DNA of 64,000 nt from Thermoanaerobacter sp. (lineage in GTDB: Bacteria; Bacillota; Thermoanaerobacteria; Thermoanaerobacterales; Thermoanaerobacteraceae). The stretch spans positions 1 through 64,000 of the forward strand of contig JADBKJ010000026.1 in NCBI GenBank assembly GCA_014896455.1, given 5' to 3'. Position numbers and translations under genes: made by a program. The notes under the pieces were generated by a model that did no database searches, was not told the DNA's origin, and worked only from the letters and a program-made list of their open reading frames with translations. Shown here in pieces: positions 31,119 to 49,496 of the stretch (position 1 is the stretch's first letter; every line of letters begins with the position of its first letter).

Positions 31119-31526
31119 TTACTTATTTTCTATCTTAATGACCATTCCCAATTTTCTTTTTAAATCTTCAAGATATTTTAAATGCTTATCCTTTATATCG
31201 TTATAAATCTCTAAAGATAATTTTTTATCGTAAATATGTAAAGTTTTATTTCTATCCATTAACATATCTATCCAAGCTTCTCCATTATCTATTAAATGAT
31301 TTTCATAAGCTGCCCTGATAACACTCCTCGGACTGTTTACTTCAATCCCTTCATAAGCAAGATAATCTTTCATAAGTTTCCACGCTAATTCAAAAGTAAA
31401 TTCAAATCTTTGTATTGCCCCATCAATAATTATCTCATTCTCTATCTCGATATCAAAGGCTTCTTTTAAACGCATAAAAGCATTTTTAAAATCTTCAAAT
31501 CTCTGAAGTAATCTTTTTTCTATCAT
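31119..31526 (-). CDS. HEPN-domain protein, HepT-like toxin
   Basis: A 135-residue all-helical protein of the nucleotidyltransferase-substrate-binding (HI0074/HepT) family. The HEPN RNase motif R-x4-H-x-Y is present as RNKTLHIY (R92, H97, Y99). The typical segment IQRFEFTFELAWKLMKDYL is at about 38-56. It follows the MNT gene by about 18 bp, the usual order for a MntA-HepT toxin-antitoxin pair in which the nucleotidyltransferase modifies the motif Tyr. Toxin activity is inferred from the family. Confidence 0.82.
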   Translation of the reverse strand: MIEKRLLQRFEDFKNAFMRLKEAFDIEIENEIIIDGAIQRFEFTFELAWKLMKDYLAYEGIEVNSPRSVIRAAYENHLIDNGEAWIDMLMDRNKTLHIYDKKLSLEIYNDIKDKHLKYLEDLKRKLGMVIKIENK

Positions 31527-31544
31527 ATACCTCTACTCCATCCT

Positions 31545-31850
31545 TCAATATATTTTTTTTAATTCCTCTTTCGCAATACTTTTAAAACTTACTACATCAA
31601 AGTCAAGAGGAGTATTTAATTCTCTTAAATCAAATTCTAAAAGATTTATCTCTGTATGTGTTATTTCATCTCCAAAAATACAAATATCAATATCCGACGT
31701 TTTTTTAAAATCTCCCCGACCTCTGGAACCAAAAATAACTGCTTTTTCAACACTTGTATATTTTGATATCACCTTTATTATTTCTTTTAATAGTGTGACA
31801 GACAATCCTGTTTTCTTACTAATATCTAGAAATTCTAATTCTCTTTTCAT
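31545..31850 (-). CDS. MNT-domain nucleotidyltransferase, MntA-like antitoxin
   Basis: A 101-residue minimal nucleotidyltransferase. The active site is GSRGRGDFKKTSDIDIC: GS at 41-42 and the metal-binding Asps at 53 and 55, all intact. In characterised pairs such proteins transfer AMP to the tyrosine of HepT and neutralise it. The gene precedes the HEPN partner, with GAGGTTTGGG before the ATG. A broken relative lies at 2735-2935, where no HEPN partner remains. Confidence 0.83.
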   Translation of the reverse strand: MKRELEFLDISKKTGLSVTLLKEIIKVISKYTSVEKAVIFGSRGRGDFKKTSDIDICIFGDEITHTEINLLEFDLRELNTPLDFDVVSFKSIAKEELKKIY

Positions 31851-37230: not shown

Positions 37231-38763
37231 ATGAAAAAGAATTTACACATTGTTATTTTGGTACTTTCTATCTTTATAAATTTACTTTTTATTTACATTT
37301 TTATCTCAGAAGTAAAACCAAATCTAAATCTCAACCTTTCTTTTATCTTGACAGCCGCAGTAATTGTTGTAACCTACCTACTATTTAAAAATAAATTTTC
37401 AGAGCTTATGCCTGTAAACTATAACAATATCACTGAGACAAATGAAGATGCCAATCACCGAAAAACCAATATCACTTTTAAAGATGTGGCAGGCTTAGAG
37501 GAAGTAATCGATGAATTAAAAGTTATAATCGACTTTATGACAAATACAGAAAAGTACAACAAAATGGGAGCGAAAATTCCCAAGGGTATACTATTTTACG
37601 GGCCACCAGGTACAGGAAAAACTCTTTTGGCTACAGCATTAGCTGGTGAAACCAATTCTACTTTTATAAGTGCTTCCGGTTCAGAATTTGTAGAGAAATA
37701 TGTAGGAGTTGGTGCAAGTCGCATAAGAGCTCTTTTCGCAAAAGCAAAAAAAAGCGCTCCCAGTATTATTTTTATAGATGAGATAGATGCTGTGGGAACA
37801 AAGAGAAACACCGATAACAATTCAGAAAAAGATCAAACTTTAAATCAACTGTTGGTAGAAATGGATGGTTTTAATAGCAACGAAGGGATTATAGTCATAG
37901 GAGCAACTAATAGAATTGACATGTTAGACGAAGCTTTGCTGAGGCCTGGAAGATTCGATAGAACTATACACATTGGAGCACCTAATATGAAAGCAAGGTT
38001 GGAAATATTAAAGGTACATACCCGCAATAAACCCCTTGACGAAACTGTCTCTTTATCCGAATTAGCTCGAAAAACTCATGGTATGACAGGCGCACATCTG
38101 GCTACTATGTGCAACGAAGCAGCAATACTGGCTGTGATGAAAAATAAAAGTAAAATTGGAAAAGAAGAATTTGAAGAAGCGTTAGAGCGCGTAATCGCAG
38201 GTCTTAAAAAGAAAAATCCTTCTGTATTAGAAAAAGAACAAACTATTGCCGCATACCACGAAGCGGGTCACGCTCTTATTGGAAAAATTTTAAACGTAAA
38301 TACTATAGAAAAAATTTCAATCGTTCCTCGAGGCGAAGCATTAGGATATGTATTGAACTTTCCTAAAGACGATGCCTTTTTATTAACAAAAACAGAATTG
38401 AAAAATAAAATAACCATGCTTTTAGGAGGTAGAGCTTCTGAGGAAATAATATTCAATGAAATTTCAACAGGAGCAGAAAATGACTTAAAAGAAGCTACAA
38501 AAATTGCCTATCAGATGGTTTGCAATTATGGAATGAGTGAATTGGGAAACAGGGTCTTTGACTTACACATGTTAAAATCCACAGAAATTGTCGATAAAGA
38601 AATTGACAAAATTATAAATAGCTGTTATATACTTGCCAAAAAAATATTGCTGGAAAATAAACATAAAGTTATTGCAATAGCCGAAAAACTTCTAGAAAAA
38701 GAATCAATTACAAAAGAAGAATTAGAAGCACTATGGGAAGAAGAAAATACTTTATGCGTATGA
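37231..38763 (+). CDS. Short FtsH-type AAA+ zinc metalloprotease
   Basis: A 510-residue membrane protease of the M41 family. Two N-terminal transmembrane helices (about 7-27 and 33-52) are joined by a very short loop of about six residues, so the extracytoplasmic domain of standard FtsH (usually about 70 residues) is missing. The AAA domain is intact: GPPGTGKT near 129, FIDEIDAVG and the SRH region [20 protein letters not shown]. The protease motif is HEAGH near 343, with the third zinc ligand in [12 protein letters not shown]. It is likely an accessory paralogue. Confidence 0.85.
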
Positions 38764-39086
38764 CAAAAAAGCCTATTTAAAAAACAGGCTTCAGTTTGTT
38801 GACAAAGTTAAAAAATATTCAAAGGAGATATTTTGCATCGTCGCTCCGATGTTCCAAAGCGACAAAACATAAGCTTCCCCTTCGGGCTCCGGCAGGGTAC
38901 CCCGTCAGGCGGCCTCCTTGCCTCAGGTGCCCGCCTTCGCCATCCATGGCTTCGGCCCTGCCTCCACCCTCGGTCTTGCTAAGTTTTGTTACCGCTTTGT
39001 AACAAGTCGCTCCTTATGCAAAATATCTCCTTTACGAAAGTTTGTCTACAGTCTGAAGCCTATTTAAAAAACAGGCTTTTTTGTCA
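38761..39086. terminator. Bidirectional terminator split by a repeat insertion
   Basis: The left half begins TGACAAAAAAGCCT at 38761 and the right half ends AGGCTTTTTTGTCA at 39086; these are perfect 14-base complements. The 23-bp hairpin core is present twice, at 38769-38791 and 39056-39078, on either side of the 264-bp repeat. Removing the repeat and one core restores a single symmetric terminator shared by the convergent short ftsH and DUF1461 genes. Each remaining hairpin keeps its outward T-run, so both may still work. Confidence 0.8.
38792..39055 (+). mobile_element. 264-bp structured repeat element, copy 1
   Basis: The ends read CAGTTTGTTGACAAAG and, reverse-complemented from the right, CAGACTGTAGACAAAC; both continue into AAAGGAGATATTTTGCAT, so the terminal inverted repeats extend imperfectly for about 85 bp. 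The GC-rich interior contains GGCAGGG (38891-38897) paired with CCCTGCC (38956-38962) and a nested hairpin GCC-ttc-GCCAT-cc-ATGGC-ttc-GGC. It is flanked by 23-bp direct repeats. It has no transposase and a small unlikely ORF only. It fits a MITE or a mobile structured RNA. Confidence 0.82.
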
Positions 39087-39765
39087 TTTTTAGTATCCCA
39101 TATACTATAGCAAGTATAACTATAAAAGTAAAAAAAGCATTTCTGAAAATTACAAACACAGCATCTTGAAAAAATTCTAAAGGAAACATTTGTATAAGTC
39201 TATCTGTTTCGGCGTTTAATTGCCATAAGTCATTGTCAAAAAATACAAGGTGAAAACCAGTAAACCAATTATCAAAATTCAAAGTCACCGTCAACGCAAA
39301 AGCCAACAGTAGAATTACTATAAATATTGTACCTTTTAAAAGATAATCGAAGGCTTTATAAAAGGATTTTGCAAAAAGAAAGTATGTAAAAATGAGTATA
39401 AAAACTATTATCGATATATTTCTTGTTAAAAAACCCATTTGAAACAAATCTTTTACATCTTTCATATGAGCTAATTCTCTATCATTAAACATTCTCTGCA
39501 TACTGCCATTAATTCTTGCACTTACATCTAAAGTCTCTTCTTTGTCCATTAAATATCTCTGCATTATCTTGGTTATTTTCATAAGTTCATCGATACTCAT
39601 TCCAGTTACATACATTACATTATTTTTTTTGTATTCCTCTTTATAAAAATTACCGTTAAAAGCCACATATTGCAAACTACTAAGCAAAACAGCCAAAAGC
39701 AGTGAAATCATCATCCCGCCAATAAGGAGGGCATCAATAGTTTTCCTCACCATTTTAAATAACAT
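39064..39765 (-). CDS. DUF1461 / TIGR01906 integral membrane protein
   Basis: A membrane protein of about 233 residues with one N-terminal and three C-terminal transmembrane helices. The family features MYVTGMSIDELMKITKIMQR, FNDRELAHMKDVKDLFQMGF, FHLVFFDNDLWQLN and ETDRLIQMFPLEFFQDA are all present. Function unknown. ATG 39765 is preferred over GTG 39774 because AAAGGTG precedes it at proper spacing. It is the last gene of the cluster running from 47345 and overlaps the preceding gene by 11 bp. Its last codons lie inside the duplicated terminator core. Confidence 0.8.
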   Translation of the reverse strand: MLFKMVRKTIDALLIGGMMISLLLAVLLSSLQYVAFNGNFYKEEYKKNNVMYVTGMSIDELMKITKIMQRYLMDKEETLDVSARINGSMQRMFNDRELAHMKDVKDLFQMGFLTRNISIIVFILIFTYFLFAKSFYKAFDYLLKGTIFIVILLLAFALTVTLNFDNWFTGFHLVFFDNDLWQLNAETDRLIQMFPLEFFQDAVFVIFRNAFFTFIVILAIVYGILKMTKKPVF

Positions 39766-41251
39766 CCTTTGCACCTTTTATTATGGCTTCATAAAAATTT
39801 TTTTGGTTTTTTAAATCACTGTAAAGTTCTATTTTTTTCTTTACTGTATGCATAAAAGATAACTTTCTACTCTGTGAATTGTCAAGCTCAATGGAGTTTT
39901 TTATATAATACAAGACTTCTTTTTCAAAATTCTGAGGTACAGGAATAATTCCCATAAGTCTTTTCATCCTCGCTTTTCTATACTCATTTTTCATGTTTCT
40001 TGAAATATCTTCAATTAAAGAAATGACATTTTTTATTTCGACTTTTATCAGAGCCATATCTATGGGTTCTTCGTTTATTTGACCACCCTCGAGTACTACT
40101 TCACTGGTATCATTTAACAAGTTTTCGTACTCTGAAAGCGTTTCAATGTCTACTAGTATACCCTCATCTATAATTTCCATAATATCTAAACCAGCATAAT
40201 CAATTCCCCCCAATAGTAGATTATACCTATACAATTCAAAATACCAATTAGAAATTACATTATCACATGTTTTGATGTTTTTTTCTATTTGTTTGCAATC
40301 TAAAGAATCTTTATTCAATTTGCTGTAAAAATCCAGATACTCCACAATAAAAGGCTCTTTTTTAAATAAAGTTTCAAATTTATCTTCTGACAAAAATACT
40401 ATCAATAGTCTATTTATAATTTTTAAAACAGAAAAAGAAACCTCTCTTAGACTTTGAATACTTTTTATTAACTCTACACTTTTTTTAAAGTACACGTCTA
40501 CTTCTTCCCGAGTCATTTCTTTAAAATCCAGTGACTGTAAGTACTCAATTTTCTTAGCAATAAGAGGGAAAAATTCGCCGTAGCCTTCTATTAATTTTCC
40601 ATAAAAATTTTCCTCTATATCTATTACCTTTTCCAAAAAAGCTTCATAATTTGGATAATCCTTCTCTAATCCCTTTGTTAAATATTCATAAAAGCGTTTT
40701 TTAGACATAGCAAAAGGAATGCTGGATATTATTTCTTTTATCCTTTCTTCTTTTTCCTCTTCAACCTCATTTATAAAATTAATAACATTTTCGTAAAATT
40801 CTTCCTCGTCTATCAATTCTTCAGAAAAGAAATCTCTTATTCTATCACTTACCACTTCGCTAACATATCTCGATTCTACATAATACCCATACAAAACATC
40901 TATAGCATTTTCAAAATGCTCTTTATATTTTCTAATCGTCTTTTCTACATTTTCTTTCATTTTTTCTTCCATAAGGCTGAAATATTGTGTATTATTTGCT
41001 ATATTCTTAACAACCTCCAAAATGTTTTGTGTTTCTTTATCCAAATAAACCAAAGCATTTGCCACATTCTTTTTTCTAAATAGTACATGGTATAAATACA
41101 CCGTCTCATTAAAAAGCTCCAAAATGCTAATTATTTGTACTATCTCTTTTTGTTTTTTTATTATTCTTTTTAACAACAAAGAAATCTCACTTGGTGTCTT
41201 TGGAATTTTATTGAGTTGTTCCCGCAATTCTCTTACCTCATCTTGTTGCAT
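39755..41251 (-). CDS. Large helical protein of unknown function
   Basis: A 498-residue protein predicted to be almost wholly alpha-helical and highly charged, with many Glu/Lys pairs (for example NEVEEEKEERIKEIIS). I see no signal peptide, transmembrane helix or known catalytic motif, and I do not recognise the family. It lies 12 bp downstream of the coiled-coil gene and overlaps the DUF1461 gene. Its place inside the Hsp70/beta-CASP cluster suggests a scaffold or client-binding role, which is only inference. Confidence 0.75.
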   Translation of the reverse strand: MQQDEVRELREQLNKIPKTPSEISLLLKRIIKKQKEIVQIISILELFNETVYLYHVLFRKKNVANALVYLDKETQNILEVVKNIANNTQYFSLMEEKMKENVEKTIRKYKEHFENAIDVLYGYYVESRYVSEVVSDRIRDFFSEELIDEEEFYENVINFINEVEEEKEERIKEIISSIPFAMSKKRFYEYLTKGLEKDYPNYEAFLEKVIDIEENFYGKLIEGYGEFFPLIAKKIEYLQSLDFKEMTREEVDVYFKKSVELIKSIQSLREVSFSVLKIINRLLIVFLSEDKFETLFKKEPFIVEYLDFYSKLNKDSLDCKQIEKNIKTCDNVISNWYFELYRYNLLLGGIDYAGLDIMEIIDEGILVDIETLSEYENLLNDTSEVVLEGGQINEEPIDMALIKVEIKNVISLIEDISRNMKNEYRKARMKRLMGIIPVPQNFEKEVLYYIKNSIELDNSQSRKLSFMHTVKKKIELYSDLKNQKNFYEAIIKGAKDVI

Positions 41252-41262
41252 TGTTACACCTC

Positions 41263-42213
41263 TCAGTCAATTATCTTTAACATTCGCGACAGGTCTTCTA
41301 CTAAAGAATACCCTTGTTCTTCCTTAGTTACAGCCAGTTGAGCTACTGTGTTGGCAAACAAAAAATTTGTCTTCTCTTCTATATTAGTCAAAATTTCTTT
41401 TATTTCAAGCAAAACATTGTTAAAATCTATCTTTTGCTGTTGGATTTCTACTAGCAATCTATTCACGGAGATTTTTAAATTTTCAGCTTGTCTTTCTTTT
41501 GATGAAGCATTTTCAATAATTTTGTTCATTCTTTTTTCAAACTCTAAACCAATTTTTTCTATTCTCTCCTCTAATATTTCTTTTTCCTTTTCTAACTGTG
41601 AAATTTTATTTTTATAGCTTAAAATTTCCCCTTCTTGCTCTTTTATTTTTTCAGTAAGCCTTTCTATCTCCATTATATTCTTTTTTTCCTGTAGAATCAA
41701 TTTTTCCTGTAATTTTTCAATATCTTTCAATAGTTTTTTGTTGATTTTTACTGGTTTATCACCGCCCTGTTGCCCATCAATATTTTTTTCTATTTTTTCT
41801 TTTTCTCCTTCAATTAAATTTAATAAGTCCTGTAATGTTTTCTTATAACTCTCACCTTTGGAAAATAGAAGTGCGGAAAAAATAATTTCTGGCTTATATA
41901 AACTCAAAAGCTCTGGTACTTTCTCCTCTATTTTTTCAAGAGTCAAAAGCTGTATCTGTTTTGCCAAATCTTCGTAAATTTTTTCCCATTCTTTTATAAA
42001 CATTTTCTCATCTATATTCCCTTTCAAAATCTCTTCTCTGAGAATTGGAATTATCTTTTTAGGTGGAGAAGCACTTTCTATCAATCGAAAACCGGCCAAC
42101 TTTTTCTGTAAATTAGTATTTTTTTTGAAAGGTCTTATAATCACATCATAAGGAAGCGTAGATAAAAAAATATCTATATACTTCTTTTCTGTCAAATTTT
42201 TAAATTCCAACAT
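41263..42213 (-). CDS. Coiled-coil protein of unknown function
   Basis: A 316-residue protein. Residues 1-150 are helical and globular-looking; about 160-235 are a strong coiled coil (IEKLQEKLILQEKKNIMEIE and on); the C-terminal part (LLVEIQQQKIDFNNVLLEIK) is helical. No family is recognised. A long coiled coil next to a divergent Hsp70 recalls GrpE-like nucleotide exchange factors, but no GrpE motif is visible, so this is a guess. It follows the chimeric small gene by 12 bp with AAGGTG before the ATG. Confidence 0.72.
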   Translation of the reverse strand: MLEFKNLTEKKYIDIFLSTLPYDVIIRPFKKNTNLQKKLAGFRLIESASPPKKIIPILREEILKGNIDEKMFIKEWEKIYEDLAKQIQLLTLEKIEEKVPELLSLYKPEIIFSALLFSKGESYKKTLQDLLNLIEGEKEKIEKNIDGQQGGDKPVKINKKLLKDIEKLQEKLILQEKKNIMEIERLTEKIKEQEGEILSYKNKISQLEKEKEILEERIEKIGLEFEKRMNKIIENASSKERQAENLKISVNRLLVEIQQQKIDFNNVLLEIKEILTNIEEKTNFLFANTVAQLAVTKEEQGYSLVEDLSRMLKIID

Positions 42214-42225
42214 ATTTTCACCTTC

Positions 42226-42558
42226 TCACATTTTAATGAGCTTGTCTGTTTTTTTATAGTTCTCTTCAATGATTTTTTGTGCTAAATACTTAATCCTGGC
42301 ACTATTGCTTTCCATTGCATCCCTAAATATTTTTTCATCAATTATATTTTTTAATCCTTTCGCATTTTTGCCTAAAATTTTATAAATCAAAAACTGTATT
42401 TCTTCCTTTGCAGTGTTTTTTAATTTTTGTATTAATCCTTGTGCTATTTCCTCGTCAAGATTTGTTTCTATTATTTTTAAAGCGTTTACAGATATCCTGA
42501 AAGTCCTTGATGCATCATCATTTTTAGGATTTGCTTTAATATACAATAATTTGCTCAT
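42226..42558 (-). CDS. Small chimeric protein: azoreductase-like start joined to HEAT-like helices
   Basis: A 110-residue ORF. The first 23 residues (MSKLLYIKANPKNDDASRTF and RIS) read like the start of an FMN-dependent NADH-azoreductase. From residue about 24 (VNALKIIETNLDEEIAQGLI) the sequence turns into amphipathic helices like the decayed HEAT-type gene upstream. No flavodoxin fold remains. The ribosome site AAAGGAG and an AT-rich upstream region may have come with the azoreductase end. It could be expressed but is probably a rearrangement product. Low certainty on both parent assignments. Confidence 0.55.
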   Translation of the reverse strand: MSKLLYIKANPKNDDASRTFRISVNALKIIETNLDEEIAQGLIQKLKNTAKEEIQFLIYKILGKNAKGLKNIIDEKIFRDAMESNSARIKYLAQKIIEENYKKTDKLIKM

Positions 42559-42679
42559 TTTTAGTCTCCTTTCGTGCGAAAATTTTAGTTAAAAAATTAA
42601 CGTTTGAGCGCTTAAAATGTTTATGCTGAATAGCAATTTTTGTTATGCACTATATATATAAATAAAATATCTAAATATT

Positions 42680-43458
42680 TTATCTCCTCCCCAACTGAAC
42701 TAAAGCCGAATAAACATTTATAGCCAAATAATTATTTTCTAAAAACTGTTTTATCATAGGTTTTGCTTTTTTAATATTTGCAAATTTGCTAAAGAAGTAA
42801 TAGCACGTTTTTAACTTAACAATTGATTCTCTTTCAAAATTTTAACATTACATTTGCACATCTTTCATCTTTCGTATACCCAACCCAATTACTATATTCA
42901 TTTTGTTTTTCACGCTAGGTCATAATAAGCCTTAAGTAAGCACTCTGGTAGCAATGCTCGTCCTCATTTTCCTGAAGTGTTATCGCAGCTTGACTATATT
43001 TCTCCTCATATAGTAGATCTGCACATTTTTAACGGCCTTTTCCTTTTAGATTCGCTATAACATTAGAATATACAATATCTAAGCTGCTATTTTCATTGTC
43101 CAAACATTTTCACATCTGGCTTCAGCCATCTCCTAGCACAGTGTTTTGTTAAAATTCTAAAGGCAAAATTTCTTTTCTCTGAGCCATTAAATCCATTAAG
43201 AGAATTAACCATATTCAATATATGAGGAATGCATTTTTTCTCTCCCAATTCTATAAGAGTTTTGCTGCTATTCTTTAAATTATCATTTTCTGTATGTAAT
43301 TAATTGCTCATAAGCCCTTATTTCTTTTATTTCTCTGCGTTTGAAGGACAAGTTTAATTTGTTCTTCCCACTCCCATTCTTGCAAAACTATGATAATAAG
43401 AAGAGTCCAGGCCTCACTGCTGTTATTTGATATATTTTTGAGAATTCTCACCATTCTT
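42680..43458 (-). pseudogene. Decayed HEAT-repeat-like gene
   Basis: This 780-bp minus-strand stretch has no intact gene but is full of coherent protein fragments split by stops and frameshifts: a start MVRILKNISNNSSEAWTLL, then SSKTLIELGEKKCIPHILNM, then SSLDIVYSNVIANLKGKG, and a final block with IKKAKPMIKQFLENNYLAIN ending in VYSALVQLGRR and stop. The paired amphipathic helices look like HEAT repeats. At least three stops and several frame changes are needed. It sits in the operon between the 121-residue gene and the chimeric gene. Confidence 0.72.
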
Positions 43459-43803
43459 TTAAAAATTTCTCTGTCTTAAATCCAAAGCTTTTGTACTATA
43501 TACTATCATCTCAATTGGATTTTGCCTTTCTGATAAAATATTTCTCCCTAATTCAACAATGTCTTTTTCTAAAGAAGCTAGTGCAGATTGGTGAAGAGTA
43601 GATAGCAATTGAATTTTTTCTCCAATAAGTTTTGCATTAGCTTCGCTAATATAATATTTAAATAGTTCTCTTTTAAAGTTTTTATCTTTATCCTTCATCC
43701 TTTTTGCTCCCAAATATTCCATTCCATCATCCATCACCTCTTTAGAAACATTTATAAAAAAATCTTTATTTTCCAAAAGCAACTCTTTCCAGTCAATGCT
43801 CAT
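43459..43803 (-). CDS. Small helical protein of unknown function
   Basis: About 114 residues, all helical (IDWKELLLENKDFFINVSKE at the start, then LLSTLHQSALASLEKDIVEL). No family recognised. I place the start at ATG 43803, which overlaps the end of the Hsp70 gene by 11 bp and follows GAGGAG; the frame to 43824 adds seven residues. Tight coupling to the Hsp70 gene suggests a co-chaperone or adaptor, by context only. Its stop directly precedes the broken HEAT-like gene. Confidence 0.68.
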   Translation of the reverse strand: MSIDWKELLLENKDFFINVSKEVMDDGMEYLGAKRMKDKDKNFKRELFKYYISEANAKLIGEKIQLLSTLHQSALASLEKDIVELGRNILSERQNPIEMIVYSTKALDLRQRNF

Positions 43804-45373
43804 ACTTTTCACTCTCCTCGCCAATAGCCACTTCTACTCTTTGCTCTGTAGAAGTTACTACCCATGCGCTCAAAGTCAAAATCCTATTTCTATCAAAACT
43901 TATTTTTAGAGAAATAGGCGTGCCAGGTTTTATTAACTTTGAAAAATTTAATTGGACACTTTTTAAACGCTTCATCTTTGGATCCCATAAATTTTTCCCT
44001 GAAAATACATCCAAGCGCATACCCGTAGCATTAGTTACTCTTAAAATCTTGTCATACTCTCTTTCATAAGGTGCTTTTGTACCTTGTGAAACAATCAAAA
44101 AAGGTAACCCATTCTTTATATCAATGTATATGTTGGAAGCCAGAACAGGCTCAATTTTGATATTGTTATTTCCTTTATTCAGTTTTTCGCTTAAATAGTG
44201 GTAAATTGCTGTTCCCCGCACAACCGAAAACATAGGATGTAAACTTATTAAAGCTTTTTTCATAAATAATTTCTCTATTGTATTTCGCACAGGCCTATAA
44301 TTGCTCATGCCTCCTGTCAAAAGTACATCATCTATATCTTGAATCATAAGCCCCGCTTTTCCCAAAGTATCTAAAATAGGGTCTACGACATTATATCCCA
44401 TGTTTCCTTCTCTAACCAGTAGAGGCCTTATACACTCCTCATATTCCTTATTAGATATTTTAAACTTATAAGGTTTCCCTTTTATAAAATTTTCTACAAT
44501 ATTTTCATATATTACTTCTTCTCCCACTGAAATACTAAAAAATCTTCTTGCCTTTTCCATCTCGCAAACCATTCTGTTATATACATGCCTTTTTTCATTT
44601 TCACTATCAAATAAATCCCCCATTCCCTTCGAAAATTTTTCTAAAAGGTAAATACTGCTCATTAAATCAAAATTTATTCCTCCTATTAAAGTATGTGAAG
44701 AAATGGCTATTTCTTCTACAATGAAGTCCTTATCCGTCATTTGTACTTCTAATATCGAGACATCACAAGTGCCTCCTCCTAAATCGAATACCAACATTTT
44801 TCTCGGCCGCGAAAAATCTAAATGTCTTTTGTTTTGTGGCAATTTTTTCTCGGTATTTATAAAATCAAGAAGTGCTGCTGTAGGCTCAGAAATAAAATAA
44901 GTATTTTGTTCATCAAATCCTGCTATTTTTGCAGCTTCTTTTGTTGCTCGAATTTGGTCGTGATTAAAGGAGGCTGGCACAGTTATAACTGCATTTACTA
45001 CTTCTTCACCAATTTCTCTCTCCAAGCTCTGTTTAACTTCCTTTAATATTAAAGCTGCCACTTCTTCTGGTGAAAAAAGTTTTCTATCAATTTCCCAAAA
45101 ATAACCTGACATTCCTATATAATTTTTACTGTTATAAATAACTCTCTCCGGTTCCTTAACTTTCATAGACTGTGCTATTCTACCCACATACTGATTTCCA
45201 CTTTTATCTACATATAAACAAGAAGGCAATATTTTATCATAAATGTATTCATGGTCTTCGTTAAACTGTCCAATATCTATGACCCGAGGCAGTAATTCCC
45301 CTTCTTGAGATATTTCCAAAATTGATGCAACCGTATTTGTAGTACCCAAATCTACTCCGACATATCTTTTCAT
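43793..45373 (-). CDS. Divergent Hsp70-family protein
   Basis: A 526-residue Hsp70/DnaK relative. ATPase motifs are intact: GVDLGTTNTVASI (residues 5-17), FDLGGGTCDVSILE near 195, ISEPTAALLDF and LLTGGMSNYRPV near 350. Residues about 410-526 form a short beta-type substrate-binding part (LRVTNATGMRLDVFSGKNLW), and the C-terminal helical lid of DnaK (about 100 residues) and its EEVD-like tail are missing. It therefore differs from housekeeping DnaK, and no grpE or dnaJ gene adjoins. It follows the beta-CASP gene by 10 bp. Confidence 0.85.
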   Translation of the reverse strand: MKRYVGVDLGTTNTVASILEISQEGELLPRVIDIGQFNEDHEYIYDKILPSCLYVDKSGNQYVGRIAQSMKVKEPERVIYNSKNYIGMSGYFWEIDRKLFSPEEVAALILKEVKQSLEREIGEEVVNAVITVPASFNHDQIRATKEAAKIAGFDEQNTYFISEPTAALLDFINTEKKLPQNKRHLDFSRPRKMLVFDLGGGTCDVSILEVQMTDKDFIVEEIAISSHTLIGGINFDLMSSIYLLEKFSKGMGDLFDSENEKRHVYNRMVCEMEKARRFFSISVGEEVIYENIVENFIKGKPYKFKISNKEYEECIRPLLVREGNMGYNVVDPILDTLGKAGLMIQDIDDVLLTGGMSNYRPVRNTIEKLFMKKALISLHPMFSVVRGTAIYHYLSEKLNKGNNNIKIEPVLASNIYIDIKNGLPFLIVSQGTKAPYEREYDKILRVTNATGMRLDVFSGKNLWDPKMKRLKSVQLNFSKLIKPGTPISLKISFDRNRILTLSAWVVTSTEQRVEVAIGEESEKYEH

Positions 45374-45383
45374 AAACTCCCCC

Positions 45384-47222
45384 CTATTGAAGTTCTATTA
45401 TTTCTCCTTCTTTTGGTGCAAAAACTTTTATTCCTTCAATTCTTTTTAAAATTGTTTCTATATTTATTTCACTCTTACTTTCGTATCCCCTGTGAATTAC
45501 AAAAACAGCAGATGGAGCCATCTTTATAACTGTTTCTAATAGGTCTACCATATTTGCATGATTTAACATTCCAATTTGATAATTTTTTAAACCTTCAATT
45601 TCTCTATTATTAGTATCGAGATTCATAATACAGCCCTTTGAAAAATTTTTTATTTCAGAAGCATATATAAAAGATGCACTTCCCTCTCTTAAGTCATTTG
45701 AACTGGCGAGAATCACGCAATTACCTAAGGCTATTTCCTTTTTTATAAAATCTTTTCTGTCAGTGTATAAAGTATTTTCAGCTACATTTAGTATTCCATT
45801 TCCATATATGGGGCCAGCAAAATTTTCATATAATTTACCAAAAAATGCTATATCTCCATCTACATACACATTAAAAGGAATATATGAAAAAGTTTTTCTA
45901 AAAAATAATAATAGGTCTTGCCCTTTACCAATAGCATATACAGGTAAAAGTATTCTCTCTTCATCTTTTAATAGCTTTTCTATCGACTTAAGTATCAATT
46001 TATCCTGTAAATACTTATTTTGGACACCAAAGTTATTGCCGTAACCATAAGTAGCTTCAGTTATTAAAATATCTACTTTTAAATCGGGAAGAAATCTAAG
46101 TCCTTTATTGCTTTCCACATCTTTTAATGTAAAATCACCTGTATAAAAAATTTTTAGCCCCTCAATCTCAAGATACACAGCTACAGCCCCTAAAATATGC
46201 CCCGCAGGAAATAACTTAAGTTTAACTTCTTTATTTTTTATTCTAAAACTACTTTCTTCTTCTGTATCAAAACTTATAATCTGGATGTCAAAATTTATAG
46301 TCTCTTCTTCTATTTTTACCTCCAATTTTGCATGTCCCCGAAAAAATATTTGCTTCAAAATTTCGTGAGTTGCCTTTGACATTATAATCGGAGAGTTTAA
46401 ACCTTTTCTTAATAATTCTACAATTCCCCCAGAATGGTCTAAATGAGCATGAGTAATAATTACCAGGTCAATATCTTTAATATCTATAGGTAAATTTTTT
46501 ATAGAATTGTAATATAAGGTTTTATCCTTAATCAAAGCTCCTGCATCTAGTAAAATATTTATTCCTTTATAGGATACCAAATAAGAGCTAGCACCAATAT
46601 TATCCCCTCCCCAACAAAAAAATTTAAAGTTATGGATGGAGTTAAAATTTTTTCTGGTTTTATGGTAATACTCATTTATTAATTTGGAATCTTCTGGAAA
46701 CAACCGATAAAGTTTAAGATTTTGTTTTTCTTCTTCACTAATAAGGCCATATTTTAATTTTAACCGCAATATATATAAGTCTTGAGGATTTAATTTATAA
46801 GCTTTATCTAAGAATTGATGCCCTTTTATTTCACCAATTTCTTCGTATATTTCAGCTATAAGTCCATATATTTTAGGTAGTAACAATTTATCCTCTACTT
46901 TTTTCTCCATATAAAGTAATTCTTCCAAAACTTCTAAAATCCTTCTTTTATTTTTAAAAGAAAGTAACAATAAATAAAAATTTATCCATTGGTTTTCCCC
47001 AGTATAATTCATTAATGCTTCAAAAAGATTTTTTGTTTTTAAAGATTCTTCTACCAAATCTAAAAGAATTACATTTTTTATAAACAAAGCTAAATTATGT
47101 TCATCAATTTCTAATTCGCTTTTTAGTTCAAGAAAATGCTCTTTTGCTTCTTCAGGAATACCTACATAAATTTCAAGTATTATCTGCCACAATAGCAAAT
47201 ATTCATATAATTTTTTGTCCAA
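45384..47222 (-). CDS. Beta-CASP metallo-hydrolase with N-terminal helical repeats
   Basis: A 612-residue protein. The N-terminal 190 residues are helical and TPR-like (FLDKAYKLNPQDLYILRLKL). The C-terminal part is a metallo-beta-lactamase/beta-CASP domain with metal motif THAHLDHSGG near 265, PAGHILGAVAVYLE, FYTGDFTL, ITEATYG and LLPVYAIGKGQ, and a terminal His in VFVIHRGYES. Such domains are RNases or DNA nucleases of the RNase J/CPSF group. The TTG start shown has a poor ribosome site, and the same frame stays open and protein-like for 41 more codons upstream. Confidence 0.8.
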   Translation of the reverse strand: MDKKLYEYLLLWQIILEIYVGIPEEAKEHFLELKSELEIDEHNLALFIKNVILLDLVEESLKTKNLFEALMNYTGENQWINFYLLLLSFKNKRRILEVLEELLYMEKKVEDKLLLPKIYGLIAEIYEEIGEIKGHQFLDKAYKLNPQDLYILRLKLKYGLISEEEKQNLKLYRLFPEDSKLINEYYHKTRKNFNSIHNFKFFCWGGDNIGASSYLVSYKGINILLDAGALIKDKTLYYNSIKNLPIDIKDIDLVIITHAHLDHSGGIVELLRKGLNSPIIMSKATHEILKQIFFRGHAKLEVKIEEETINFDIQIISFDTEEESSFRIKNKEVKLKLFPAGHILGAVAVYLEIEGLKIFYTGDFTLKDVESNKGLRFLPDLKVDILITEATYGYGNNFGVQNKYLQDKLILKSIEKLLKDEERILLPVYAIGKGQDLLLFFRKTFSYIPFNVYVDGDIAFFGKLYENFAGPIYGNGILNVAENTLYTDRKDFIKKEIALGNCVILASSNDLREGSASFIYASEIKNFSKGCIMNLDTNNREIEGLKNYQIGMLNHANMVDLLETVIKMAPSAVFVIHRGYESKSEINIETILKRIEGIKVFAPKEGEIIELQ

Positions 47223-47403
47223 TTTCTTTACTAAACTTTTTTGCTGAAAAACATACCAATAAGCATTTATATAATCCTCCTTTTCTATAAATTCTTTTAG
47301 GTTGTTATCGTATACATCATAAATATTTAAAAATGACGTATCCCATCACCTCCTTATGTTTTTATTTTAATACCTTTTGAGTAAAAATTCTACACAAAAA
47401 ATA

Positions 47404-47433: not shown

Positions 47434-47826
47434 TCACAATTTATTAAGTTTTTTTGCTTCTTCTGCCACTAAAAGAACTTTATCAAAACCACTACCTATA
47501 GAAGCCTCTACACTAGCTGCAATTGCTCCCTCCACTAAAGGTGCATCAGCAATTTTTACTTTACCTTCATATTCCTCTCCCAGGAGTTCTATCGCCATTT
47601 GCGCACTCATTACAGCACTTCCAATATCAACTAAAACTACTACTCCTTCTCCATCGTCTACTTTTTTAATTTCCTCCATTATCTCTGTAGCATCTGTTCC
47701 CAATCTGCCATCTTGGGTCCCGCCAGCTACCCCTATAGGAACTTTTCCACCTGTCATTTGGCTTGCAAGTTCATAAATCCCCTCTACTATTTTTCTTGAG
47801 TGAGATACTAACACTATTCCGACCAT
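47434..47826 (-). CDS. dhaM: PTS-dependent dihydroxyacetone kinase, phosphotransfer subunit
   Basis: EIIA-mannose-like protein that passes phosphate from the PTS (HPr) to DhaL-bound ADP. The active-site His is in LVSHSRKIVEG near the N-terminus, and the GTQDGRLGTDATEI segment follows the family. At about 130 residues only the EIIA domain is present; the longer enterobacterial DhaM also has HPr and EI parts. ATG 47826 is favoured since GGTGGAGG precedes it; the longer frame starts inside the dhaL stop region. Confidence 0.9.
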   Translation of the reverse strand: MVGIVLVSHSRKIVEGIYELASQMTGGKVPIGVAGGTQDGRLGTDATEIMEEIKKVDDGEGVVVLVDIGSAVMSAQMAIELLGEEYEGKVKIADAPLVEGAIAASVEASIGSGFDKVLLVAEEAKKLNKL

Positions 47827-47840
47827 TTTTTCCTCCACCA

Positions 47841-48479
47841 TCATGATAAATTGACAACATCAGAAAAAGACTTTATCATCAAATATGCTGATGTTGCCCC
47901 TGGATCTAAGTGTCCAATACTTCTTTCTCCTAAGTAACTTGCTCTTCCTTTTCTTGCAGAAATATTCTTAGTATATTCCATTCCCTCTTTTGCAGCATTA
48001 GCTGCTCTATTTAATGCTTCAGGTAATGCAATGTTGTTCTCTAAACTATCTTTTAAAGCTTTATATGCAGGTTCAATAGAATCTATCATAGTCTTGTCTC
48101 CTGCTTCGGCTTTTCCTCTTTGTTTGATGCCATCTAAAGCAGCTTCAAAGATTTTAACTATATCCTCTTCATAAAGTTCATTTTTGCCCTGAACTACTTG
48201 TCCAGCCCTCATAAAAGCTGTACCATATAAAGGACCAGAAGCTCCTCCCACCGTAGATACAAGAGTCATGCCTAAAGTTTTTAATATTGTCCCTATGTCA
48301 GTAGTTTCAGGCAATGTGGTCAATTTTTGCTTTACGGCATCAAATCCTCTATCTAAATTTATTCCGTGGTCCGCATCACCAATAGCAGCATCCAACTCTG
48401 TAAGGTACTCTTTATTTTCTTTTATAACCTCTACAATCTTGTCCACAACTTTTAGGACATCATTTTTTGTGATAACCAT
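47841..48479 (-). CDS. dhaL: Dihydroxyacetone kinase, ADP-binding subunit
   Basis: A 212-residue DhaL. It holds ADP permanently as a coenzyme that is phosphorylated by DhaM and passes phosphate to dihydroxyacetone on DhaK. The Mg-ADP site GDADHGINLDRG (residues about 31-42) and the GGASGPLYGTAF loop near 78 are intact. It lies 18 bp after dhaK with GGAGG before the ATG. Confidence 0.93.
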   Translation of the reverse strand: MVITKNDVLKVVDKIVEVIKENKEYLTELDAAIGDADHGINLDRGFDAVKQKLTTLPETTDIGTILKTLGMTLVSTVGGASGPLYGTAFMRAGQVVQGKNELYEEDIVKIFEAALDGIKQRGKAEAGDKTMIDSIEPAYKALKDSLENNIALPEALNRAANAAKEGMEYTKNISARKGRASYLGERSIGHLDPGATSAYLMIKSFSDVVNLS

Positions 48480-48497
48480 CTTCTACCTCCTAAAAAT

Positions 48498-49496
48498 TTA
48501 TAATTGTTTGAAAGCAGGTGTATCAGCCCTTGCATCTAACAATGTTTTAAGTTCTTCATCTAATTTTAATAATGTTATAGAAAATCCACTCATTTCAAGA
48601 GAGGTCATAAATTCTCCTACGTATGTTTTGTAAACTTTGATCTTCTTACTCTCTAAGATTTCTGCTACTTTCCTGTTCGCAACATAAAGTTCCATTAAAG
48701 GAGTTGCACCAAGCCCGTTTATCATAACAGCAACCTCGTCATTTTCTTTATAAGGCAGGTCATTTATTATTTTCTCCATTAAATGTTCTACTATTTCATC
48801 TGCAGGTTTTATTTTTTCTCTGTGAGTTCCAGGCTCTCCATGTATTCCTATACCAATCTCCATCTCATCTTCTGCAAGAGTAAAGCTGGGTTTCCCTGCT
48901 GCCGGAACAGTACAGGGTGTTAGTGCCATTCCCATTGACCTTACATTTGCAATTACTTTCTCAGCTACTCTTTTTACTTCTTGTAAGCTAGCACCTTCTT
49001 GTGCCTTTGCACCAGCAATTTTGTGAACAAAGACAGTTCCAGCAATGCCACGCCTTCCCTGCGTCCAAGTGCTATTTTCTACTGCAACATCATCGTTCAC
49101 TATCACTTCATCTACTTCTATTCCCTCCATCTGTGCCATTTCTCTAGCCATTTCAAAATTCATTACGTCACCTGTGTAATTTTTAATAATCAATAATACT
49201 CCTTTTCCTCCATCCACTGCCTTAATCGCTTCATAAATTTGGTCAGGTGTAGGTGAAGTAAAAACAGCACCAGGGCAGGCCGCATCTAACATTCCATAGC
49301 CCACATATCCTGCATGAGCAGGCTCATGGCCACTACCACCACCACTTACAAGTCCAACTTTTCCTCCAACAGGTGCGTCTTTTCTGACAATTACATCTAT
49401 GTTGTCAAGTTTTCTCAGGTAAGATGGGTGAGCAACCAGCAAACCTTCTATCATTTCTTTCACGACATCATTAGGATTATTAATTAACTTTTTCAT
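48498..49496 (-). CDS. dhaK: Dihydroxyacetone kinase, substrate-binding subunit
   Basis: A 332-residue DhaK, which binds dihydroxyacetone through a hemiaminal bond to a His and presents it to DhaL. Signatures GGGSGHEPAHAGYVG (near 53), NYTGDVMNFEMA, the His-bearing IGIGIHGEPGTHR and MINGLGATPLMELY are present. It is the first gene of dhaKLM, 41 bp downstream of a sigma-54 promoter, and makes dihydroxyacetone phosphate for glycolysis. Confidence 0.94.
   Translation of the reverse strand: MKKLINNPNDVVKEMIEGLLVAHPSYLRKLDNIDVIVRKDAPVGGKVGLVSGGGSGHEPAHAGYVGYGMLDAACPGAVFTSPTPDQIYEAIKAVDGGKGVLLIIKNYTGDVMNFEMAREMAQMEGIEVDEVIVNDDVAVENSTWTQGRRGIAGTVFVHKIAGAKAQEGASLQEVKRVAEKVIANVRSMGMALTPCTVPAAGKPSFTLAEDEMEIGIGIHGEPGTHREKIKPADEIVEHLMEKIINDLPYKENDEVAVMINGLGATPLMELYVANRKVAEILESKKIKVYKTYVGEFMTSLEMSGFSITLLKLDEELKTLLDARADTPAFKQL

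Follow-up and report, generated by a model that had tools for sequence, protein, structure and literature searches.

A nuclease-Hsp70-HEAT-coiled-coil gene block in Thermoanaerobacter, possibly a degraded copy of a chaperone-gated conflict system

What might a nuclease do with an Hsp70 of its own? This question is raised by a row of genes on the - strand of a 64,000-nucleotide stretch of Thermoanaerobacter sp. DNA (contig JADBKJ010000026.1, positions 1 to 64,000), which we refer to as the window. Four co-directional genes in this row form a cassette. They encode a metallo-nuclease of the metallo-beta-lactamase (MBL) fold and beta-CASP type with a TPR-like N-terminal part, an Hsp70 without the lid domain, a HEAT-repeat protein and a coiled-coil protein (CC316). 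We lean, with reserve, towards reading it as the degraded copy of a modular, so far undescribed conflict system gated by a chaperone, most likely acting against phages or plasmids. A defence role of some kind appears fairly probable to us, and chaperone gating in the form described below is only just probable.

Results

The cassette behaves as one losable unit

The - strand row is flanked by the dihydroxyacetone kinase genes (47434-49496) on one side and by an opposite-strand FtsH-like gene (37231-38763) on the other, and its order is MBL, Hsp70, HEAT remnants, CC316, hel498 and Lit. The features of the cassette, with its open reading frames (ORFs), are as follows.

45384..47222, - strand: candidate effector with TPR-like N-terminus and MBL/beta-CASP nuclease, 612 aa (Pfam Lactamase_B, 3.4e-14)
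43793..45373, - strand: lidless Hsp70, predicted ATPase, 526 aa (Pfam HSP70, 4.9e-54)
42226..43824, - strand: broken HEAT-repeat gene; intact homologues 526-547 aa (Pfam HEAT_2, E 1.9e-12, in the relative L029)
43459..43824, - strand: N-terminal HEAT remnant, a 121-aa ORF
42489..42669, - strand: 181-bp azoreductase-like 5′ copy in place of HEAT sequence (BLASTN 181/181 versus L026, contig C17)
42226..42488, - strand: C-terminal HEAT remnant, fused in frame with the azoreductase start (97.7% over 263 bp to L029)
42226..42558, - strand: 110-aa ORF containing the C-terminal HEAT remnant
41263..42213, - strand: coiled-coil protein CC316, 316 aa, lost with the cassette

Along the row, the junctions measure +10, -32, (broken gene), +12, +11 and -20 nt, and they are identical in L029, an intact relative. 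The two ORFs within the broken gene are 900 nt apart, and all other gaps fall between -32 and +12 nt. Thus, a metallo-hydrolase with a helical N-terminus, an Hsp70, a coiled-coil ORF and a 498-aa helical ORF are present on one strand with short gaps, as the original prediction had it.

We compared the window with the same region from 19 further genomes of the family, giving 20 family loci. A gene was scored intact when a single open frame covered at least 90% of the query, and a divergent gene with less than 90% aligned was scored broken. The four cassette genes stood in the same order in 16 of the 20 loci, some with a broken gene and one with the MBL gene cut by the contig end; a 17th contig starts within the coiled-coil gene. 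The MBL gene was intact in 15 loci, cut by a contig end in one and absent from four. Hsp70 was intact in 15, broken in one and absent from four, the HEAT gene was intact in 14, broken in two and absent from four, and CC316 was intact in 13, broken in three, cut in one and absent from three. The absence in L043 is a contig edge, leaving a true absence of the block in three of the 20 loci (L035, L036 and L037).

The remaining genes of the row are the following neighbours.

39755..41251, - strand: hel498, a 498-aa helical protein (intact in 19 of 20 family loci)
39064..39774, - strand: Lit/TIGR01906 membrane protein, 236 aa (Pfam Lit, 1.1e-39)

The intact hel498 copies include those of the cassette-less loci L035 and L037, and the gene is broken in L036. 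Lit is present in all 20 loci, three of them matched over only 80-87%, and the "broken" scores of Lit in these three probably reflect divergence. In L035, about 80 nt separate hel498 from DhaM, and a scrap of CC316 is left in L036. The MBL-Hsp70-HEAT-CC316 block therefore behaves as a unit that is lost as a whole, leaving hel498 and Lit in place. Since both of these genes persist in loci without the cassette, they are probably not core parts, and the 498-aa protein, once counted in the unit, probably lies outside it. The hel498 profile gave no match in 74 non-family loci from genome contigs, where Lit was not searched. A lone distant hel498 homologue (L047:9317-10789; 490 aa, about 20% identity) was seen in another family of the order, and no cassette gene matched in that 19-kb stretch.

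The FtsH-like gene beside the cassette locus is intact in all 20 family loci. Its product is a 510-aa AAA/M41 protease-type protein whose FtsH match runs from profile position 111 onward and scores 596 bits, the cut-off being 600. "Broken" scores occurred among flank genes too (Fhlyr 3, DhaK 1, CoCoA 1, Lit 3); therefore, some broken scores are sequencing errors or divergence. The intact copies are under purifying selection. The ratio of nonsynonymous to synonymous substitution rates (dN/dS) was 0.06-0.28 for cassette genes (one CC316 pair gave no ratio) and 0.04-0.06 for flank genes, and the window compared with L029 gave 0.16-0.28 for MBL, Hsp70 and CC316.

The HEAT gene of the window is broken

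Two small helical partners had been proposed. Aligning the region with intact relatives, we find instead a single broken HEAT gene, of which the 121-aa ORF is the N-terminal end and the 110-aa ORF the C-terminal end; in relatives, an intact gene of 526-547 aa takes its place (532 residues in one of them). The copy in L029 carries recognisable HEAT repeats, and both end parts of the window copy are 94-98% identical to it. Over about 1 kb between these parts, the alignment with L029 contains 24 gaps, of which five lie inside the replaced stretch. The replaced stretch matches, at every one of its 181 bp, the 5′ region and first codons of an azoreductase-like gene of the same genome, named from its translation, and this copy supplies the start of the 110-aa ORF. 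The dense indels and the exact copy may stem from genuine rearrangement or from faulty assembly. If the break is real, the damaged HEAT gene probably leaves the cassette inactive in this genome.

In the close relative L028, an opposite-strand 444-aa ORF (L028:8105-9439), perhaps a mobile element gene, interrupts the HEAT gene after its first 26 codons. Our coverage rule scored this gene intact despite the interruption near its start.

The Hsp70 and the nuclease are predicted to be active

The Pfam HSP70 match ends at profile position 498 of 599, leaving no C-terminal lid domain, and in homologues without a fusion little follows the beta substrate-binding domain. Two homologues, in L082 and L083, carry a long C-terminal extension that is helical by inspection only. 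The window protein scored 184 and 180.2 bits against DnaK equivalog models with cut-offs of 648 and 822.55 bits. A second Hsp70 gene, on contig C30 of the same genome, was taken to be the true dnaK; against Pfam HSP70 it scores 862 bits, and the gene of the window 174. Putative catalytic D, K, E, D and T residues, presumably those of DnaK, are invariant in 16 of 16 Hsp70 homologues.

The best-scoring named families for the nuclease are aCPSF1 (3.1e-34) and Cas14 (5.7e-33) in NCBIfam. The scores remain far under the curated cut-offs, namely 118.2 of 580.2 bits for aCPSF1, 114.1 of 800 for type VII Cas14 and 34 of 820 for RNase J1, and membership of aCPSF1, type VII CRISPR (Cas14) or RNase J was therefore rejected. 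The TPR-like N-terminal part and the Hsp70 linkage also distinguish the window nuclease from aCPSF1 and Cas14. Residues HxHxDH, the H of motif 3, the D of motif 4, the H of motif B and the H of motif C are invariant in 14 of 14 homologues including that of the window, and the acidic residue of motif A is missing in L082 and L083. Since the active-site residues are conserved, we predict that the nuclease is active and that the Hsp70 is an active ATPase.

The cassette recurs rarely outside the family, usually with a GrpE-like gene

Searching genome contigs with an Hsp70 profile, we obtained 151 stretches that matched the pattern; 90 were confirmed and 80 loci were kept. With wide profiles, cassette partners were found in 26 of the 80, comprising six family loci (L059-L064), 19 others (L065-L083) and L090, a contig-end fragment with a GrpE-like gene and Hsp70. 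The wide profiles were built from rows among L065-L083, so the scores of those rows are not independent; first detection came from narrow family profiles and all-against-all BLAST. The other 54 loci hold other Hsp70 types and no cassette partners, except for distant MBL matches in L107, L111 and L121. Two of these, L107 and L121 (Desulfobacteraceae), have a 430-aa MBL ORF about 1.5 kb upstream of a different Hsp70 type of 886-940 aa, possibly a parallel Hsp70-MBL association. Eight viral contigs (L162-L169) carry an Hsp70-like ORF of yet another type (828-873 aa) without cassette partners.

Among the 20 distant cassette loci, the MBL gene adjoins the Hsp70-HEAT pair in 14 (L065-L078) and a GrpE-like gene with the longer Hsp70 in two (L082 and L083). 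It is replaced by a STAND gene in L080 (Evansella) and L081 (Selenomonas), and its position lies beyond the contig end in L079 and L090. The Hsp70-HEAT pair recurs with this nuclease in other Clostridia, and the taxa of the distant relatives include Caloramator, Thermosyntropha, Clostridium bornimense, Romboutsia, Lachnospiraceae and Selenomonadales. Co-occurrence in other genomes, on which the original prediction hinged, was found both in the family, with the block order kept in 16 of 20 loci, and far outside it for the Hsp70-HEAT cassette.

The gene order varies, MBL being first in the window family, on plasmids and in L082 and L083, and last in L065-L078. In two distant chromosomal loci of the MBL type, the junctions between Hsp70, HEAT and MBL were measured; they come to 5 and -4 nt in L067 and to 17 and 24 nt in L159. 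Pairwise distances of the Hsp70, HEAT and MBL proteins correlate at 0.93-0.95 over 10 loci, a result also expected from vertical descent alone.

The cassette is rare and its distribution patchy. At E 1e-10, HEAT profile A7 matched 10 of 398 genomes in a phylum sample, and seven of these, including the genome of the window, belong to the family. Among 391 genomes from the class of C. bornimense, its one match was the query genome, and among 300 from the class of Selenomonas massiliensis it matched two, one of which had contributed a profile row. In the genus of L159 and L160, two of 12 genomes have the HEAT gene.

The window had been described as lacking a grpE partner. This holds for the window itself, and profile A6 (E 0.01) found no cassette-type GrpE-like gene in its genome or nine other family genomes. 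It does not hold for the distant cassette loci, 16 of 20 of which have a GrpE-like gene; L076, L078 and L079 start only at Hsp70, and none was seen in L068. The GrpE-like proteins have a helical N-terminal domain and a GrpE-like C-terminal part. Using a clean set of seven GrpE sequences, hhalign related this family to GrpE with a probability of 79.5 and a score of 44.5; the highest score from 50 column shuffles was 19.9. A Foldseek search with the predicted fold, which has the long helix, helical bundle and beta-wing of GrpE, placed GrpE entries at ranks 1-3 and 5, and the top Z also belonged to GrpE. Pfam GrpE gave no match at E 0.1 for the four GrpE-like proteins scanned. Profile and predicted fold together give moderate support to the idea that the extra protein of the relatives ends in a GrpE-like exchange factor. 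Two plasmid-borne members scored low with the profile (18.9 and 16.2 bits) but reached 94.4% to A6 by hhalign.

The idea that CC316 is a diverged GrpE-like protein was not supported. By hhalign, it reached 16.8% over 47 columns of its coiled-coil region with the GrpE-like family and 10.0% over 36 columns with GrpE. On plasmid L185, a 281-aa ORF with weak generic coiled-coil-type matches follows the HEAT gene.

The effector slot appears exchangeable, and some cassettes lie near defence or mobility genes

In L080 and L081, NB-ARC proteins of 866 and 861 aa (E 1.1e-8 and 5.5e-10) occupy the slot after HEAT, at +24 and +2 nt. A further variant, L179, from the class of Selenomonas massiliensis, has a GrpE-like gene (7e-51), Hsp70 (7e-211) and HEAT (1e-100), then a 264-aa ORF that reads as methylase-like and a 1263-aa protein, with overlaps of -4 and -14 nt. 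The latter protein matches Eco57I (2e-17), ResIII (4e-12) and, under the cut-off, T5orf172 (0.0014), and none of the five L179 ORFs matched MBL or STAND. In these sequences, the slot is occupied by a beta-CASP nuclease, a STAND/NB-ARC nucleoside triphosphatase or restriction-modification genes.

We also inspected the surroundings of the relatives. In L160, two CRISPR arrays that share one repeat flank the cassette, the repeat being present in 22 and 9 exact copies (24 and 9 when variants are counted); Cas5, Cas7 and a TM1802 Cas8-type protein are found beyond the first array, and Cas1 and Cas3 further out. L159 comes from that genus too; there, 39 exact repeats form an array that stops about 0.3 kb short of the cassette, and Cas10 lies about 14 kb away on the other side. 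On the side opposite to this array, PP2C, FHA, radical-SAM, AAA and protein kinase genes (L159:14750-19890 and L183:170-2290) look like a second conflict or signalling module. The STAND variant L081/L180 has HsdR about 11 kb away, a PDC-S01 match and an IetA-type AAA protein (E 6e-70; IetA models also match ordinary FtsH-like proteins). A second flank ORF, its locus not shown, matches PDC-S01 as well, and L066 has a BrxD-like ATPase (E 1e-18). Of 134 flank ORFs, 102 were scanned, and of 20 of these taken singly, six matched at 1e-10 and 14 did not.

Two plasmids typed as mobilizable (among the loci, L184 and L185), pNCT2_2 of Priestia megaterium and pNY3A of Klebsiella grimontii, carry MBL, GrpE-like, Hsp70 and HEAT genes in a row. 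An integrase gene lies upstream of the cassette on pNY3A. On pNCT2_2, an Mrr-like restriction gene lies upstream, and a weak PsyrT/ShosT match beside DprA lies downstream. These two plasmids were the only ones among 72,556 plasmid records to match the Priestia HEAT protein at 1e-8, and one of them is the source of that protein. Beside the cassette of the window, defence genes or mobile elements were not seen. PADLOC 2.0.0 assigned no family to any of 10 cassette proteins of relatives, and the window proteins gave weak generic MBL, Hsp70 or coiled-coil matches only (best 3.6e-7).

Discussion

How might such a cassette work? We suggest that the Hsp70 and its GrpE-like partner (host GrpE or DnaJ in the genome of the window) would bind an aberrant or phage-made polypeptide. 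Its ATP cycle would then alter a complex for which the HEAT and coiled-coil proteins serve as scaffold, and this change may release or activate the effector. The effector would cut nucleic acid and halt the infection or the cell. RNA is the likeliest substrate of a beta-CASP enzyme. A more far-reaching version, in which a dedicated Hsp70, its own GrpE-like exchange factor and a HEAT adaptor form a universal sensor of abnormal (phage-made) protein with interchangeable effectors, and thus a new class of immunity, we hold only tentatively and rather doubt.

Several findings weigh against a chaperone-gated conflict system. The position is fixed at the family level, as for a physiological operon, and the window's own copy is broken and has no GrpE-like gene. 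The defence context comes from a minority of loci tallied with no matched control. Compared directly with GrpE, the plasmid GrpE-like pair reached 0.37%, which is no match.

The original prediction had left open whether the Hsp70 gates the nuclease in a conflict system or takes part in quality control. In a stress or quality-control operon, the Hsp70 would remodel a beta-CASP RNase, or recruit it, for the removal of damaged mRNA or of stalled translation complexes, and phages would play no role. The locus does sit beside dhaKLM in 14 of the 16 family loci showing MBL (L030 is cut and L034 has other upstream genes), Romboutsia-like loci share neighbours, and the purifying selection described above would suit such a function. 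However, three of 20 family loci lack the cassette, it is very rare beyond the family, and a cassette gene is disrupted in six of the 16 loci that retain it (window, L031, L033, L034, L046 and L028). Nor would quality control readily account for effectors swapped for STAND or restriction genes, or for cassettes on mobilizable plasmids and in CRISPR loci. We regard it as unlikely. The effector swaps, CRISPR-Cas loci and mobilizable plasmids support a gated conflict system indirectly, and the rarity and losses make quality control the less likely of the two functions originally proposed.

It is quite improbable that the block joins unrelated units, a general Hsp70-HEAT chaperone pair beside varying accessory genes. 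The shifting place of MBL, first or last, and the separateness of hel498 and Lit fit that idea, yet Hsp70, HEAT and MBL are found together in the 14 distant loci, their junctions are short in L067 and L159, and their protein distances correlate, as they would under vertical descent alone. We give a similarly slim chance to silencing or destruction of foreign RNA targeted by a chaperone, with the Hsp70 as an RNA binder rather than a protein sensor. Beta-CASP enzymes related to aCPSF1 are mostly RNases, which would suit such a role. CnuD, for which RNA binding was proposed, likewise combines Hsp70 nucleotide-binding and substrate-binding domains with HEAT repeats (PMC11090510). Its ATP motifs are reported to be degenerate (PMC11090510), whereas those of the cassette Hsp70 are conserved. 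Moreover, a GrpE-like exchange factor implies an active nucleotide cycle, and no McrB-type GTPase matched among the window operon ORFs.

Among known systems, CoCoNuT type III (CnuD/CnuCD) resembles the cassette, as it is a predicted immune operon with Hsp70 nucleotide-binding and substrate-binding domains, HEAT-like repeats, coiled coils and a nuclease (PMC11090510). The pairing of Hsp70 with HEAT repeats that marks CoCoNuTs is found here as adjacent genes. CoCoNuTs differ, however, in being built on an NxD McrB-type GTPase and in their Hsp70 ATP motifs, which are reported to be degenerate (PMC11090510). The cassette has conserved ATP motifs, a usual GrpE-like partner in distant relatives and a beta-CASP, STAND or restriction effector. 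An McrB-type GTPase gave no match in the seven window operon ORFs scanned (the wider flanks were not scanned), and we rejected CoCoNuT membership on this ground.

HSP70 and GrpE genes occur in the second theme of the GAP1-N2 GTPase conflict systems, in predicted conflict loci partly from Firmicutes (PMC7159879), and the distant cassettes likewise hold HSP70 and GrpE-like genes together. Those systems differ in their GTPases, GAP1 and FNIII/DnaJ proteins, and section 29 of the source describes no HEAT-nuclease core (PMC7159879). By Pfam, GAP1, GTPase and FNIII/DnaJ had no match in the seven window operon ORFs, and the lack of a GAP1 or GTPase match led us to reject membership here too. In Hachiman, AVAST, Lamassu and DRT operons, MBL-protease modules also bring an MBL-fold nuclease that needs activation into immune operons; they use ComEC-like DNA-uptake nucleases activated by a trypsin-like protease (PMC12799240), in contrast to the beta-CASP enzyme and Hsp70 found here.

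Chaperones are needed by some phages and also help to activate at least one STAND-type immune protein (PMC12169576). Phage protection by bNACHT25, an NLR-related STAND-type effector dependent on DnaJ-DnaK, needs DnaJ and is not restored by DnaJ mutants that disturb the work with DnaK (PMC12169576). Because bNACHT25 depends on DnaJ/DnaK, sensing through a chaperone is plausible. It relies on host chaperones, whereas here the chaperone is a dedicated cassette gene. In the openly licensed PMC literature, we found no described system in which an Hsp70 with its own exchange factor is the core joined to swappable effectors. If the chaperone-gated conflict system is real, it becomes testable whether bacteria sense infection via protein-folding burden rather than via one viral molecule. 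Homologues from thermophiles and from the soil Priestia plasmid offer material for work on structure and function.

Additional observation in the window

At 31119-31850, two adjoining ORFs of 135 and 101 aa resemble, by reading of their sequences, a toxin-antitoxin pair of the HI0074/MNT nucleotidyltransferase type.

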